Assembly: GCA_905479295.1 (NCBI GenBank)
Contig: CAJQLY010000022.1
Span: 1-59,047, forward strand
DNA from: an uncultured Gammaproteobacteria bacterium
GTDB taxonomy: Bacteria; Pseudomonadota; Gammaproteobacteria; UBA4575
Reading direction: 5' to 3'
Length of the DNA: 59,047 nt
Shown: piece after piece, positions 2,894-29,682 of the stretch
How positions within the stretch are numbered: the stretch's first letter is position 1
Layout: each line of letters starts with the position of its first letter
The notes under the pieces: generated by a model
Told to the model about the DNA's origin: nothing
The model's database searches: none
The model's input: only the letters and a program-made list of their open reading frames with translations
Position numbers and translations under genes: made by a program

Positions 2894-3754
2894 ATGAAAA
2901 ACCTTCTTATTTTCTCCAGCTATTCGGCAGACGGTTCGCTACCGCCTTATGTCTTACATTTACTCAAAAACATACAAAATAGCTGTGCGATCACTAAGAC
3001 CATATTTGTTTGGACCGGACCAAAACTATCCCAGCTAACACACGAAGCCTTGAGAGCGAGCAACACTGAGATTGTTATGCGTGAAAATATTGGCTTTGAC
3101 TTTGCTTCATACAAGCATGCCTTAGCTCGTGAGAACCCTCAAGAATCCGACTATGATGGGATATTTTTTGCCAATGATAGTGTCTACGGTCCCTTTAATA
3201 GCTTAAAGATAGCCGTAGCAGGCCATGAACTATTCGACATTTGGGGTATGACTGATAGCTGGCAACATACTTATCATTTGCAAACCTATTTCTTCTATAT
3301 CAGAAATACTGCATTCCAAGAAATTCAATCATTCTTTCATCAATATGAAATTTACACTGAGCACTCAGATATCGTCAAATATGGAGAAATGAAGCTAGCT
3401 CAGTGGTTTTTAAATCGTGGAAAAAAATTAGGATGCAAATTCACCATAGAAAAGATTGTTGCGCATCATTTAAGTGATAAACCAATTTTAAAATTGATCA
3501 CTAGCCTAAAGTCTATTTTTTCATCCTTCAAAAAATCTAAGCAAGTATTTTTAGACTTTAGCCCAACGAAGAAACTATGGAAAAGCTGTCTGCACGAAGG
3601 ATCGCCCTTTATTAAACGCAAACTATTGGTTGAGAAGAAAAACTATAAGTACCATAAAGAAGAGTGGATCCAAGCGATAAACCCTGGGTATGAAGTCGCA
3701 ACACAACTTGCATATGAATCTGTGACTATCGAGCGTGCAAGAAAAGCCAAATAA
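2894..3754 (+). CDS. RgpF-like polysaccharide protein, second copy
   Basis: This 286-residue protein has the RgpF-family signatures ENIGFDFASYKHAL, FFANDSVYGPF and DIWGMTDS, followed by a cluster of aromatic residues. It resembles the short RgpF-domain proteins found in capsule and O-antigen loci. It is related in family to the ORF upstream but is not a close duplicate. No signal peptide or clear membrane segment is seen, which suggests a cytoplasmic protein. Its base composition is AT-rich, like the gene before it. About 215 bases separate the two genes, so co-transcription is uncertain. galU, which makes UDP-glucose for glycan synthesis, lies convergent downstream. The substrate sugar cannot be told. 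Confidence 0.75.
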   Translation: MKNLLIFSSYSADGSLPPYVLHLLKNIQNSCAITKTIFVWTGPKLSQLTHEALRASNTEIVMRENIGFDFASYKHALARENPQESDYDGIFFANDSVYGPFNSLKIAVAGHELFDIWGMTDSWQHTYHLQTYFFYIRNTAFQEIQSFFHQYEIYTEHSDIVKYGEMKLAQWFLNRGKKLGCKFTIEKIVAHHLSDKPILKLITSLKSIFSSFKKSKQVFLDFSPTKKLWKSCLHEGSPFIKRKLLVEKKNYKYHKEEWIQAINPGYEVATQLAYESVTIERARKAK

Positions 3755-3951
3755 ACCTTAACCTCAATTAGTGATCAATTTGGCATTTTTAAAATCCACT
3801 CCCAAGCAGTCCTCGTGTGACAAGATGGTTTTTTTGAATGGCCCATTCAATACCTAGCTCAGCCTCAACACAGTAATACCGTGTCGCCCGATAAACTAGC
3901 TCAGTAAGCACCGCTAAAAAAGATGGCTTACATAAAGTGATCGAACTCAGC

Positions 3952-4830
3952 TTATTTGAAACAATCCATTTTTTTTAGATAAGCTTTAAATGCAGCTCCC
4001 ACTTCGGGGTGCTTTAAACCGTATTCTAAAGTGGCCTGTAGATATCCTAATTTACTACCACAGTCATAACGCCGTCCTTCAAATTCATAGGCATAAACCG
4101 ATTCCTGTTGTAGTTGTTTCACAATCGCATCAGTTAGTTGAATCTCACCACCTGAACCTGGCTGGGTTTCTTCCAACATCTCAAAAATCGAGCTTTCTAA
4201 AATATAACGCCCCACCACAGCTACATTAGAGGGGGCATCTTCTGGTTTTGGTTTTTCCACCAACCCAGATAGTTTCCATAAGCGGTCTTTTGTATTTTGA
4301 CCTGCAACAACGCCATAATTTTTTACATTCTCTAAAGGCACTTTTTGCACCCCAATAACACCACTCTGCTCTTTTTCATACACATCAACCATCTGCTGCA
4401 AACAACTCTTATCACCACCATCGATAAGGTCATCCGCAAGAATAATAGCAAAAGGCTCATCACCAACTACTGACTTACTACACAAAACAGCATGCCCCAG
4501 ACCCAAGGCTTCAGATTGGCGAATATAAATACATGAAATTTCTGGCGGCAGAATATGCTGTACTTCAGCTAGCCGGTCTAACTTACCACTGGCTTCTAAT
4601 TCAGACTCAAGCTCATACGCTTTATCGAAGTGATCAGGAATTGCACGTTTGTTACGGCCAATGATAAAAATTAAGGTATCAATACCAGCATTCACTGCCT
4701 CTTCCGCCGCATATTGAATTAAGGGCTTATCAACAATGGGGAGCATTTCTTTCGGGTTGGCTTTAGTCGCAGGTAAAAAACGCGTACCCAACCCTGCTAC
4801 TGGAAAGACTGCTTTACGAACTTTTTTCAT
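3952..4830 (-). CDS. galU: UTP-glucose-1-phosphate uridylyltransferase
   Basis: GalU makes UDP-glucose from UTP and glucose-1-phosphate in the cytosol, feeding lipopolysaccharide, exopolysaccharide and osmoprotectant synthesis. The nucleotidyltransferase signature [20 protein letters not shown] is at the N-terminus, with [23 protein letters not shown] and [12 protein letters not shown] further on, all typical of bacterial GalU. I start the protein at the inner ATG (MKKVRKAVF), which gives 292 residues and matches the family start; the ORF track begins 7 codons earlier. Neither ATG has a strong ribosome-binding site. Its position next to RgpF-like genes fits a polysaccharide role but is also common elsewhere. 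Confidence 0.93.
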
Positions 4831-4951
4831 GGCTATTAGACTCAGAGGCATAGTAATAAGAATCAGCTTATTAACTATATATGAATCCCTTAAAAATAGC
4901 AGGATTTAGAGTTAAACCCTGCTACTTAATCGCCTGAATTATCTAGCTTAA

Positions 4952-5230
4952 TTACTCGGTAATCGTCTCTACCACGATCAAATCTTTATTCAGCTCTAAT
5001 GTCGAAATACCAATACCGCGCACCTGCAACAACTGATCTATATCATGATATTCACCATGCTCATCACAGTAGTCAACAATAGCCCTCGCCTTCACCATAC
5101 CGACCTGCTGAAGATTTTCAGCAATCTCTTCAACGTTAGCTTGATTAATATTAATCGGCTGAGCTTGAATGCTGACAGCTCCCAGACAGAGGGCTAAACA
5201 TAACAGTAAGGTTTTACCTATTCTCATCAT
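4952..5230 (-). CDS. ComEA-like helix-hairpin-helix exported protein
   Basis: A 92-residue protein opens with a signal peptide (MMRIGKTLLLCLALCLGAVSIQA). A single helix-hairpin-helix DNA-binding unit follows, with ININQANVEEIAENLQQVGMVKARAIVDYC and then LLQVRGIGISTLELNKD. This is the architecture of the short gammaproteobacterial ComEA proteins that bind incoming DNA in the periplasm during transformation. It lies downstream of pyrF on the same strand, about 100 bases away, so it may be read from the pyrF transcript. No other competence gene is in the window, so a role in DNA uptake is inferred from the family. Confidence 0.85.
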   Translation of the reverse strand: MMRIGKTLLLCLALCLGAVSIQAQPININQANVEEIAENLQQVGMVKARAIVDYCDEHGEYHDIDQLLQVRGIGISTLELNKDLIVVETITE

Positions 5231-5264
5231 TATTCTCCGAAGTTATCGATCGAAAGATACAATA

Positions 5265-5342
5265 TGAGCCTTACGGCTCAACACAAGAACAGTTTAGGTA
5301 GAGTGGAACTAGTCGGTAAGACGCGACAGTGCGTTACGCACT
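5265..5342 (-). repeat. Two hairpins at the pyrF 3' end
   Basis: Two perfect hairpins lie at the end of pyrF. AGTGCG-TTA-CGCACT (5328-5342) is centred on the pyrF stop codon itself. TGAGCC-TTAC-GGCTCA (5265-5280) lies further downstream and in the minus direction is followed by a weakly T-rich stretch. They may attenuate transcription between pyrF and the ComEA-like gene. Neither has a strong U-tract. Confidence 0.4.
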
Positions 5343-6068
5343 AGTGAACGCGGTATAGAATTTCATTAGTGCAGCTTGTGGGTCTTGCGAGCATGTAATT
5401 GGCCTGCCGACAACGATATGCGACACACCAACTGTTTGCGCTTGTTCAGGTGTAAAGATACGATGTTGATCATCCTTAGCATCCTCTGGCAAGCGTATAC
5501 CCGGCGTCACGGTTAAAAACTCAGCCCTATTTTGAGCACGAATAGCAGCCACCTCTTGTGCCGAACAGACCACACCATCACAGCCATGATCAGCAGCCAT
5601 AGTTGCCCAATGATCAACCACTTCTGGAATCTTTCTAGCAACACCAATCTGATGCAACGTATCTTGATCCATCGAAGTCAATACAGTCACCGCAATCAGC
5701 AATGGCGCTGGTCCAGTAGCTTGGCAATCTAAGGCCTCACGTGCAGCTGTAATCATCTTTGGCCCTCCTGAAGCATGGATGTTAACCATCCAGACACCCA
5801 GCTTGCTGGCAGCCGCACAGGCGCTGGCCACTGTATTCGGAATATCATGAAATTTAAGATCAAGAAAAACACGGAACCCCTGTGAAACCAAAGTTTCAAC
5901 CAAGGCTGGACCTGCTGCAACAAAGAGCTCAAAACCAACTTTTAATGCACAGTACTTGGGCTTAAGTTGACGCACAAAGGTAAGCGCTGATTCTGCATCG
6001 GCAAAATCTAAAGCGATAATGACGTAATGATCTTTGGGGAGAGAACTATCTGACATCTGAACTGGCAT
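5334..6068 (-). CDS. pyrF: Orotidine-5'-phosphate decarboxylase
   Basis: PyrF catalyses the last step of UMP synthesis, decarboxylating orotidine monophosphate. The catalytic motif VFLDLKFHDIPNTV is present, with IALDFADAESAL at the first strand, LTVTPGIRL near the phosphate-binding loop and VVGRPITCSQDP at the end, all as in the bacterial family. The length of 244 residues is normal. An alternative ATG four codons in (MSDSSLPK) is equally possible; AGGA sits one base from the first ATG and thirteen from the second, so the start is ambiguous. It follows ihfB on the same strand after a short gap, and that pairing is common in gammaproteobacteria. Confidence 0.94.
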   Translation of the reverse strand: MPVQMSDSSLPKDHYVIIALDFADAESALTFVRQLKPKYCALKVGFELFVAAGPALVETLVSQGFRVFLDLKFHDIPNTVASACAAASKLGVWMVNIHASGGPKMITAAREALDCQATGPAPLLIAVTVLTSMDQDTLHQIGVARKIPEVVDHWATMAADHGCDGVVCSAQEVAAIRAQNRAEFLTVTPGIRLPEDAKDDQHRIFTPEQAQTVGVSHIVVGRPITCSQDPQAALMKFYTAFTSA

Positions 6069-26045: not shown

Positions 26046-26780
26046 ATGGATATCGCGAACTACCAGCCAGCAGCAGATTGCCTACAAGACCGCATCATTA
26101 TGATCACCGGCGCTACTCGCGGCATAGGTAAAGCTCTCGCCATCGATGCCGCCAAACTAGGTGCAACAGTCTTATTGATCGCAAAAGACCTCAAACGCTT
26201 AGAACACACTTACGATGAGATAGAAGCACTAGGCAAGGCTCAACCTGCCATGCTCAACATCGACCTTGAAAGCGCTGGCGCCGACGACTACCAAACCGTC
26301 GCCAACTCGGTACACGAAGAATATGGCCGTATCGATGGCCTAGTGCATAATGCTGCAAGGGTTGGTGGGCTAACCCCACTACAGCAAACCGATGTCGCAC
26401 TCTGGTCTAAACTAATCACACTACACCTGCATGCCCCGTTTCTACTCACCCGCGCCTGCCTACCACTATTACAAAAGAGTGAAGACCCAAGCATCGTCTT
26501 CAGTATCGATGAAATCAGCAAGGCCTATTGGGGAGCTTATGGTGTGAGCAAGGCCGGACAAATAAGCCTAATGAACATCCTCGCCGAAGAACTCGATGGT
26601 GACCAACAAATCAGGGTCAATGGCATTCACCCTGGAAAAGTACGCACCCACCTGCGCACCCACAACTACCCAGGCCTCAACCCTAACGAATTTCCAGCAG
26701 CAGAAGACGTCACCAACCCCTACCTATATTTCTTAAGCCAACAAAGCAAAACGATAACTGGACAGTTATTTCGCATTTAG
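26046..26780 (+). CDS. yciK: YciK-type short-chain dehydrogenase
   Basis: A short-chain dehydrogenase of 244 residues, with the coenzyme motif TGATRGIGKALAIDAA, NAARVGGLTPL in the middle, and the catalytic YGVSKAGQ pair (Tyr and Lys four apart). The end VRTHLRTHNYPGLNPNEFPAAEDVTNPYLYFLS is YciK-like. The true substrate of YciK is not established. It follows rmuC after 3 bases and closes an operon of ubiG, mupP-like, rmuC and yciK. The cas1 gene begins 180 bases downstream. Confidence 0.9.
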   Translation: MDIANYQPAADCLQDRIIMITGATRGIGKALAIDAAKLGATVLLIAKDLKRLEHTYDEIEALGKAQPAMLNIDLESAGADDYQTVANSVHEEYGRIDGLVHNAARVGGLTPLQQTDVALWSKLITLHLHAPFLLTRACLPLLQKSEDPSIVFSIDEISKAYWGAYGVSKAGQISLMNILAEELDGDQQIRVNGIHPGKVRTHLRTHNYPGLNPNEFPAAEDVTNPYLYFLSQQSKTITGQLFRI

Positions 26781-26960: not shown

Positions 26961-27896
26961 ATGCAAGCACTGACCGACCTCAAAGCGATACTCCATTCCA
27001 AGCGCGCTAATATCTATTACTTGGAAAAGTGCCGTGTTATGCAAAAAGATGGCCGCATGCTTTACCTCACAGAAGCAAAAGACGAAAACCACTATTGGAA
27101 CATCCCAATAGCTAACACCACCTGTCTCTTACTTGGCGCAGGCACCTCCATCACCCAAGCCACCATGCGCATGCTGGCATCTGCAGGTGTACTCGTAGGT
27201 TTTTCAGGTGGTGGTGGCACACCACTATTAATGGCCACTGAAATCGAATGGATGACACCACAGAGTGAATATCGACCAACCGAATATGTTCAGGCTTGGA
27301 TGTCCTTTTGGTTTGATCAAGACAAACGCCTACAGGTCGCTAAGCGCTTTCAACAACAGCGCATTGAATACATTCAAAAAGTATGGGGCAAAGATAAAGA
27401 CCTACATGCTGAAGGCTTTCAGGCTGAGGAAGCCTTACTCACACAATTCATCCATAAAATCGAGCATGCCACCACTGTTAATAAACTCCTCACCGATGAG
27501 ATGGCGCTCACCAAAACCTTATATAGAATCGCTGCAACTACCACCAAAACCAACAAATTCAGCCGTAACCGTGAAGCCAATGACGATGCCAACGCCTTTT
27601 TAAATCATGGTAACTACCTTGCCTATGGCTTGGCTGCTACCACACTTTGGGTTCTAGGCATCCCCCATGGTTTCGCAGCCATGCATGGCAAAACACGGCG
27701 CGGCGCCTTAGTGTTTGATATTGCAGACTTAATAAAGGATACCCTCATCCTGCCATGGGCATTTATCTGCGCTAAAGAAGGTGCAACAGAACAAGAGTTT
27801 CGCCAACAATGCCTACAGAACTTCACCAAACACAAAGCCTTAGATTTTATGTTTGATAGTGTTAAACAAATCTGCCTTGAGGCCAAGCAGCCATGA
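26961..27896 (+). CDS. cas1: CRISPR-associated endonuclease Cas1, subtype I-F
   Basis: Cas1 integrates new spacers into CRISPR arrays. The 311-residue protein has the subtype I-F pattern: LKAILHSKRANIYYLEKCRV, YWNIPIANTTCLLLGAGTSITQATMR and PQSEYRPTEYVQAW. The metal-binding catalytic residues all appear intact: Glu180 in LLTDEMALTK, His242 in FAAMHGKTRRGALVFDIADL, and Asp253 and Asp256 in the same stretch. The spacings H+11 and H+14 equal those of Pseudomonas aeruginosa Cas1. Length is near normal for I-F (about 320). Its stop overlaps the cas2/3 start as ATGA, the native coupling. No CRISPR array, csy genes or other cas genes are visible nearby. Whether the protein is expressed or useful without them is unknown. 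Confidence 0.95.
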   Translation: MQALTDLKAILHSKRANIYYLEKCRVMQKDGRMLYLTEAKDENHYWNIPIANTTCLLLGAGTSITQATMRMLASAGVLVGFSGGGGTPLLMATEIEWMTPQSEYRPTEYVQAWMSFWFDQDKRLQVAKRFQQQRIEYIQKVWGKDKDLHAEGFQAEEALLTQFIHKIEHATTVNKLLTDEMALTKTLYRIAATTTKTNKFSRNREANDDANAFLNHGNYLAYGLAATTLWVLGIPHGFAAMHGKTRRGALVFDIADLIKDTLILPWAFICAKEGATEQEFRQQCLQNFTKHKALDFMFDSVKQICLEAKQP

Positions 27897-28270
27897 TGGT
27901 CACCTTTGTTTCACAATGCGAGCACAAGGCCCTAAATAGAACCCGCCGCATATTAGATGCTTTTGCTAATCGCATTGGTACAAACACATGGCAAACCGTT
28001 ATTACTGAAGAGGGCTTGCAGTCCGTTAAAAAGTTATTAAGAAAGACCGCCACTAAAAATACAGCAGTTTCTTGTCATTGGCTTAGAAGCCGCAGTCGCA
28101 GCGAATTTATTTGGGTAGTGGGTAGTAAAAGCAAATTCAATGAACAAGGCATAGTGCCAGTAAATTATACCGATCAAATTAATGCATTAAAAATGGATGA
28201 ATTAAACGTGAATATAGAAAAATATTATGCGAATACAAAACGCCAACCATCCACAACACGTCATCCTTAG
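27893..28270 (+). pseudogene. cas3: Truncated cas2/cas3 fusion gene (Cas2 domain only), subtype I-F
   Basis: In subtype I-F, Cas2 and Cas3 are one protein of more than 1000 residues. Here only 125 residues remain. MMVTFVSQCEHKALNRTRRILDAF, TWQTVITEEGL, TAVSCHWLRSRSRSEFIWVVG and FNEQGIVPVNYT are the Cas2-like N-terminal domain and its linker. The authentic sequence runs to about NIEKYYANTKRQP; after it comes a short unrelated tail (STTRHP) and a stop. The HD nuclease and helicase domains are gone. The loss coincides with the broken end of a convergent metallohydrolase gene at about 28,245-28,252. The Cas2 domain is nearly complete and could still fold, so the remnant might act as a Cas2. Confidence 0.9.
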
Positions 28271-28874
28271 GATCATAAATACTTAAATCAGCTGCTGTAT
28301 GGGCAACATCATGAGCCATCAGTAATAATTTACGATCACCCAAATCAAGTTGAAGTGTGTCGCTCACCAGTACATCAGGAAATATAATTTCAGTCGCAGC
28401 TTGCACTGAATGCTTAGAAGCTTGCAGACGGTCGAGGAAAATATCCCCTACTAATCCCAATGCTTGAGGTAGATTCTGGGGCCCAACAAAATGCGTACTC
28501 TCTTGTTGAAAGGCCTTATTGCCTAACATATGGTCGGGGTGCACATGGGTATTAATGACATAGCAGATTGGTGTCGCTGTTAGTGAGCGAATAGCCTGTA
28601 ATAAGCGCATACCTTCAGTATAGCTGCCGCCCGTATCAACCACTGCAACGCATTCAGTACCAATAATAAAGCCGATATTAGCAATATCTTCAGACTCGAA
28701 AATCATACCGTGATGACCCGGCCGCACATAACTGCTAGCAGCGACTTGACTAAGTCCATGGCTATTTTTTGTATTTTGCTCACTACTCTGTAAGGCTGTC
28801 TCAGCATGCGCTTGAATAAGCAAAATACCCGCTGTTAGGAGCAACGGAAAAGATAATGAAAATGGATTAGACAT
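28179..28874 (-). pseudogene. Truncated metallo-beta-lactamase-fold hydrolase (quinoprotein relay type)
   Basis: A 231-residue ORF with a signal peptide (MSNPFSLSFPLLLTAGILLIQAHA). Its first 208 residues are an MBL-fold metallohydrolase resembling the quinoprotein relay system zinc metallohydrolases: SYVRPGHHGM, FESEDIANIGFIIG, VAVVDTGGS and the metal motif NTHVHPDHMLGN (residues about 109-119), plus the third His near residue 192. The family then continues with a GD metal-bridging Asp and a last His. Here the sequence departs at about residue 208 (VLWMVGVLYSHNIF), where it reads the reverse complement of the cas2/3 remnant. Two metal ligands are therefore lost and the enzyme should be inactive. 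It lies downstream of the glycosylase gene on the same strand. Confidence 0.85.
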
Positions 28875-29067: not shown

Positions 29068-29682
29068 TTAATATTGTCTAACATCAGAATTGATACCGAT
29101 GTAACAATTGCTTCTTAAACAGCAACTCTCACAACGCGGCTTAGTCTTACACCACTGCTTACCAAGCTCGATAATCAGGGCATGATAATGCGCATAGGTT
29201 TTCACATCTGCTGGGATGGCGTTTTCAAACTGAGCCTGTAGCTCATCATATGAATCCTTCTCATTTATCAATCCTAAACGAGAAAAAATACGGCGTGTAT
29301 AGGCATCTATAATAAAAACTGGATGATAAAAAGCATATAAAACAATATCGTCTGCTGTTTCAGGGCCCACACCATTCACTGCTAATAAGCCGGCACGCAG
29401 ATCGGCCATCGACCATGTTGCTAAGACCTCCGCTCCACCCTGCTGAAGATACCAAGCACAGAGAGACCGTAATCTTTTTGCTTTTATATTGTAGTAACCA
29501 GAGGGACGGATGACTTGCGCCAGCAGATCAATATCGCTAGCCATAATGGCTTGCGCATCTAATAGATGATGTTGTTTTAGCTGGAGGATAGCCTTTTCAA
29601 CATTGGTCCAAGCTGTATTTTGGGTTAATACTGCCCCAACCATAATCTCAAACGGATCATCAGCTGGCCACCAAGCATCCAA
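29068..29682 (-). CDS. HhH-GPD endonuclease III-like DNA glycosylase
   Basis: A DNA base-excision glycosylase. The helix-hairpin-helix region is VNGVGPETADDIVLYAFYHPVFIIDAYTRRIF, with the catalytic Asp in the last part. At the C-terminus the four-Cys iron-sulfur cluster motif WCKTKPRCESCCLRSNC (C-x5-C-x2-C-x5-C) is present. The style resembles 3-methyladenine glycosylase III/MagIII-type proteins more than Escherichia coli Nth. The start is uncertain. The given TTG leaves out well-formed upstream residues (FQTVFSILDQQLALDAWW) that fit the family. No ATG or GTG occurs in frame before the in-frame stop upstream, so CTG, ATT or ATA must be used. The gene begins at or near the rluB stop. Confidence 0.85.
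   Translation of the reverse strand: MDAWWPADDPFEIMVGAVLTQNTAWTNVEKAILQLKQHHLLDAQAIMASDIDLLAQVIRPSGYYNIKAKRLRSLCAWYLQQGGAEVLATWSMADLRAGLLAVNGVGPETADDIVLYAFYHPVFIIDAYTRRIFSRLGLINEKDSYDELQAQFENAIPADVKTYAHYHALIIELGKQWCKTKPRCESCCLRSNCYIGINSDVRQY

Follow-up and report, generated by a model that had tools for sequence, protein, structure and literature searches.

A putative deletion scar joining the remnants of a type I-F2 CRISPR-Cas locus and a convergent metallohydrolase gene in an uncultured gammaproteobacterium

Type I-F2 (I-Fv) CRISPR-Cas systems, as described in Shewanella putrefaciens CN-32 and Vibrio cholerae RC385, carry cas7fv, cas5fv and cas6f in this order and possess no cas8/csy1 (PMC7266957, PMC6360697). 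The I-F1 systems, including that of Pseudomonas aeruginosa and of one member of the family studied here (G009), encode csy1-4. A second protein family that concerns us is that of the quinoprotein relay metallohydrolases, of which PP_2678 in the ped cluster of Pseudomonas putida is a related member (PMC12997753). Here we analyse a site at which remnants of both meet, in a contig of 59,047 nucleotides (the window). The source is a metagenome-assembled genome (1.15 Mb, 60 contigs) with a completeness of 77% and a contamination of 5%, in which the window is contig C22; checks within its own genome (G000) are searches of this bin. Two congeners (G001, G002) and a sample of 369 genomes from the class were used for comparison.

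The genes at the site follow the order yciK (+), cas1 (+), a short cas2/3 ORF (+), a metallohydrolase ORF (-), an endonuclease III-like gene (-), rluB, scpB, scpA and trpS (-), the last four being named from their translations (coordinates in Table 1). Compared to the S. putrefaciens and V. cholerae systems, the window shares Cas1fv, the N-terminus of Cas2/3fv including its subtype-specific linker and the order of the operon's first genes, but is devoid of the HD and helicase domains of cas2/3, of cas7fv, cas5fv and cas6f, and of an array.

Table 1. Features of the junction and its flanks, in window coordinates
Feature	Position	Strand	Basis
yciK-like SDR gene, conserved left flank	26046..26780	+	NCBIfam NF006509; same order in G004, G005, G006, G007, G009
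cas1, type I-F2 (I-Fv), full length, apparently intact	26961..27896	+	TIGR03637, PADLOC Cas1fv, P. aeruginosa Cas1 structures
cas2/3 5' stub: Cas2 domain and linker, 119 of ~990 codons, without HD and helicase	27893..28249	+	PADLOC Cas3fv, alignment to intact I-F2 proteins, PF21384
Junction CCA-T-CCA; both homologies stop at 28249/28250	28247..28253	.	alignments
Out-of-family tail STTRHP and stop: cas2/3 frame running into hydrolase antisense	28250..28270	+	
'Quinoprotein relay system zinc metallohydrolase 2', metallo-beta-lactamase fold, 5' two thirds	28251..28874	-	TIGR04559
Hydrolase-frame tail (MVGVLYSHNIF...), antisense of cas2/3	28179..28250	-	six relatives; scores do not exceed those of shuffles
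Endonuclease III / 3-methyladenine glycosylase-like gene, conserved right flank	29068..29682	-	HhH-GPD; beside yciK in G005, G006, G007

The original prediction had read the cas genes as type I-F, probably with csy1-4, and in this respect it has to be revised. In PADLOC, the window Cas1 scores 578 bits with Cas1fv versus 479 with Cas1f, which places it in the I-Fv clade, and the cas2/3 product matches Cas3fv over positions 1 to ~117-120 of 951 with 210 bits versus 146 for Cas23f; the subtype indicated is I-F2 (I-Fv) and the genes lost are cas7fv-cas5fv-cas6f. A profile search matches Cas1 to TIGR03637 over positions 1-306 of 307, and the protein aligns over its full length with the P. aeruginosa Cas1 structures. 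Its nearest single relative among those compared is the I-F1 member G009 (77% identity), and both Cas1 and the Cas2 domain are homologous to their I-F1 counterparts; the linker after VPVN, however, is unmatched in I-F1, and the I-F2 models outscore those of I-F1 for both window proteins.

This linker is the part of the stub that separates the subtypes. The cas2/3 ORF (27893-28270) matches I-F2 Cas2/3 across residues 1-119, with 80% identity to G265 and 78% to G161, in agreement with the prediction that the reading is authentic to KRQP (28,249) and then ends in an unrelated tail. The linkers of both relatives are near-identical to that of the window (NYTDQINALKMDELNVNIEKYYANTKRQP in the window versus NYTNQLNVLKMDELDVNIEEYFANTKKQP in G265); past residue 119 G265 and G161 read LAQHLFAVGY and DQHLFAVGY, whereas the window switches to STTRHP and a stop, six codons without any match. 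The domain models concur, the stub matching PF21384 (the Cas2 domain of I-F Cas3) and TIGR02562 over positions 1-105 of 1110 only. Against I-F1 proteins (G009, P. aeruginosa) homology appears to end at residue 94, after VPVN-x-T, while against I-Fv loci on plasmids from Legionella and Acinetobacter it reaches residue 118-119. Within the class survey, matches extending to residue 118-119 were those of G161, G265, G214, G114, G047 and G126, which comprise intact ORFs of ~1000 aa (I-F2), the ORF of G161, which is interrupted by the end of its contig, and two loci in decay; ORFs of ~1100 aa (I-F1) match the stub to residue 94-103 only. The stub thus has the linker of its own that follows the Cas2 domain in Cas2/3fv and does not pass from VPVN-xT straight into the END/HD region as Cas3f does. 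A break at residue 94 (~28174), as the I-F1 relatives suggest, was rejected because the I-F2 relatives match through residue 119. By their sequences, stub and Cas1 are members of type I-F2 (I-Fv), with cas2/3 cut after codon 119. In Acinetobacter, the Cas2/3 proteins of an I-F2 locus (L110 12001) and an I-F1 locus (L112 10001) have a near-identical Cas2 domain and are unrelated after VPVN, a sequence pattern that suggests that the subtypes have exchanged the adaptation end, the break lying where Cas2 meets Cas3. The Cas2 domain being common to I-F1 and I-F2, a subtype call from a stub needs the linker.

On the opposite strand, the hydrolase ORF (28874 down to 28179) is authentic for 208 residues, from 28874 to 28251, or about two thirds of the family length; similarity to relatives (48% at best) runs to LW at codon 208 (28253-28251). 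Intact relatives match TIGR04559 over positions 2-283 with 398 bits, the window protein over positions 4-181 of 283 with 191.5 bits, below the 280-bit cut-off and short of full length. After LW the relatives continue with xGDLLFxExxPxxDGS or close variants, in which DLLF is conserved and mostly preceded by G, and a PGHGP motif follows later; the window protein is without the ~105-110 C-terminal codons that include the GD and PGHGP motifs. Its tail of 23 residues (MVGVLYSHNIFLYSRL) scores at or below its own shuffles against six relatives, which bears out the proposal that the reading is authentic to about VLW (28,250) and then becomes the complement of cas2/3; for the same reason we rejected the idea that the hydrolase continues past LW in frameshifted or degenerate form. 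The window protein reads as a truncated former member of TIGR04559, in which two thirds of the metallo-beta-lactamase fold, at the N-terminus, are shared with the family; the last third of the protein and the other genes of the cluster are missing. The same family sits in PQQ/quinoprotein ABC clusters in L086 and L083. In L103 (G017:C48, 10749-11528, minus strand) an in-frame fusion links the N-terminal third of such a hydrolase to the C-terminal part of the cluster's ABC ATPase; this is another deletion, with a YV common to both sides at the join.

That both short genes encode functional short forms is extremely improbable. In its favour, the window's Cas1 is intact and its Cas2 domain complete; relatives, however, encode full-length proteins, and the hydrolase stub has neither GD nor PGHGP and ends in cas2/3 antisense.

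The two homologies meet at 28249/28250 with an ambiguity of ~1-3 bases around CCA-T-CCA, inside the interval of about 28,245-28,252 in which both losses had been placed. Both genes are truncated at one point and relatives encode both at full length, so that one deletion remains the simplest account, as originally proposed; we consider it likely that a single deletion, with its ends inside cas2/3 and the hydrolase gene, fused the remnants of a complete I-F2 locus and a convergent hydrolase. The yciK-endonuclease III site would once have held cas1, cas2/3, cas7fv, cas5fv, cas6f and probably an array, with the quinoprotein-relay metallohydrolase gene convergent to them and probably leading a PQQ/ABC cluster. 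A deletion ending after cas2/3 codon 119 and hydrolase codon 208 would have joined the remnants tail to tail, taken the interference functions (HD nuclease, helicase and Cascade genes) and orphaned cas1 and the Cas2 domain. The junction was searched for repeats, insertion sequences, tRNAs and RNA elements, with no hit, and its exact sequence was not found in viral contigs; since it has no repeat or insertion sequence, the ends were probably rejoined illegitimately, sharing at most ~3 bases.

Because the three remnants together run for ~640 codons without a stop, the event is either recent or an artefact. An artefact would be an assembly chimera, in which the assembler or a chimeric read joined an I-F2 contig to a hydrolase contig from two strains of the genus; the contamination of the bin and the lack of secondary decay in the remnants would fit, as would the presence in the bin of a contig (C41) that belongs to a different species of the genus and spans the left flank seen in the window. 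A misjoin in the assembly graph needs a shared k-mer, however, and the junction sequence was found once in the bin with no other match above 14 bases. G+C is alike on either side (0.44 and 0.43), and the two flanks are both syntenic and have diverged from G001 to about the same degree, as expected of a single genome: identity to this congener is 89-92% on the left and 90-93% on the right. The synteny follows from other genera of the family, in which yciK and the endonuclease III-like gene adjoin (~50 bp apart in G005 and G007). We regard a chimera as unlikely.

Contig C41 (L065) has 98.8% identity to the G001 species, which means that the bin holds two species of one genus, and it carries an alpha/beta-hydrolase gene after yciK in place of cas1. 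The gap between yciK and the endonuclease III gene is an insertion hot spot in this genus; in other members of the family, yciK adjoins rluB instead. The G001 contig carries a cas1 start 190 bp past yciK and ends inside this gene, and another G001 contig has a different, prophage-like sequence beside endonuclease III (L068, G001:C50, 1-1700), with genes that resemble parts of a Mu-like prophage as read from the sequence and have no Pfam hit. In G002, yciK is followed by a PQQ-dependent alcohol dehydrogenase ABC cluster in the same orientation as the window's hydrolase; beyond it, where a hydrolase might lie, the sequence reads as N. The cas1 start of G001 is 95% identical to that of the window over 59 residues. 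As it occupies the same place after yciK, the cas1 insertion predates the split of the two lineages, and with 15 synonymous versus 3 non-synonymous codon changes the cas1 start has been under purifying selection since; this signal concerns the period before the proposed deletion.

The variability of the site between strains, with a quinoprotein ABC cluster in G002, cas1 in G001 and neither after yciK in C41, would also suit homology-facilitated illegitimate recombination, whereby incoming yciK-cas1-cas2/3 DNA, homologous in yciK and joined illegitimately in the hydrolase, replaced a resident quinoprotein cluster and the two loci were never adjacent. Such an import is quite improbable: identity to G001 shows no rise near cas1, and the stretch on the cas1 side is if anything more diverged (81.5%).

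Under the single deletion that we favour, the extent of the loss can be gauged from the intact I-F2 loci of G265, G214 and G114, which are organised as cas1, cas2/3, cas7fv, cas5fv, cas6f and array, with arrays of 37-67 repeats; their cas2/3 has a linker of the same kind as the window's and goes on into HD and helicase domains. In these loci cas6f ends 5.1-5.5 kb beyond codon 119 and the array 8.8-11 kb beyond it, so the rest of cas2/3 and cas7fv-cas5fv-cas6f would have amounted to at least ~5 kb before any array. In G265 and G161 (L148 3611-4305, L149 4045-4413) a VapC-like PIN toxin gene lies on the opposite strand between cas1 and cas2/3, in G265 accompanied by a MazE/AbrB-type antitoxin. 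Searches of the genomes G000, G001 and G002, the first being 77% complete, found neither the rest of cas2/3 nor cas7fv, cas5fv or cas6f, and no I-F repeat with up to 3 mismatches; none was found in the window either. The set of cas7fv, cas5fv and cas6f without cas8 that marks a working I-F2 member is thus missing from G000 and its locus is a remnant, and an array with the I-F repeat is seen neither in the window nor in the genus. The comparison with relatives that the original prediction called for yielded intact I-F2 loci and intact hydrolase ends; the undeleted arrangement was not found, and an intact I-F2 locus side by side with this hydrolase, likewise intact, occurs in no genome examined. 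The deletion probably removed a quinoprotein cluster too, given that the hydrolase belongs to such clusters and that the congener G002 has one at this place. Searches of G000 and G001 yielded no gene of a PQQ/quinoprotein ABC cluster, and a search of the genus for pqqE (PQQ synthesis) gave nothing above the cut-off. With Cas3 and all Cascade genes gone and no array seen, the locus cannot now confer CRISPR immunity.

Decay of I-F2 loci is seen elsewhere in the class sample, in which 3 of 7 are decayed (the window, G047 and G126), a small count. In G047 (L104, G047:C34, 10432-12973) cas1 is intact, cas2/3 ends at ~466 residues, and three I-F repeats but no cas7fv, cas5fv or cas6f are found. In G126, a complete genome of 1.4 Mb (L152, G126:C1:185000-197000, 3423-5870), a partial cas1 is followed by pieces of cas2/3 that run into the 3' part of cas6f, cas7 and cas5 being gone. 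All three retain part of cas2/3 along with cas1, itself partial in G126, and have lost effector genes, but their break points differ. That cas1 and a stand-alone Cas2 of 125 residues are retained as a minimal module for spacer acquisition or DNA repair, without Cas3 or interference genes, we hold to be very unlikely.

Deletion of CRISPR loci is a known way of loss, and a search for close parallels in the library of papers covered here found none. The scar is a clear instance of CRISPR loss in I-F2, of an ordinary kind of gene loss that is here neat and instructive. It presents a base-resolved case of the loss of a compact CRISPR-Cas system, in which the interference genes would have gone in one step and the adaptation end stays behind.
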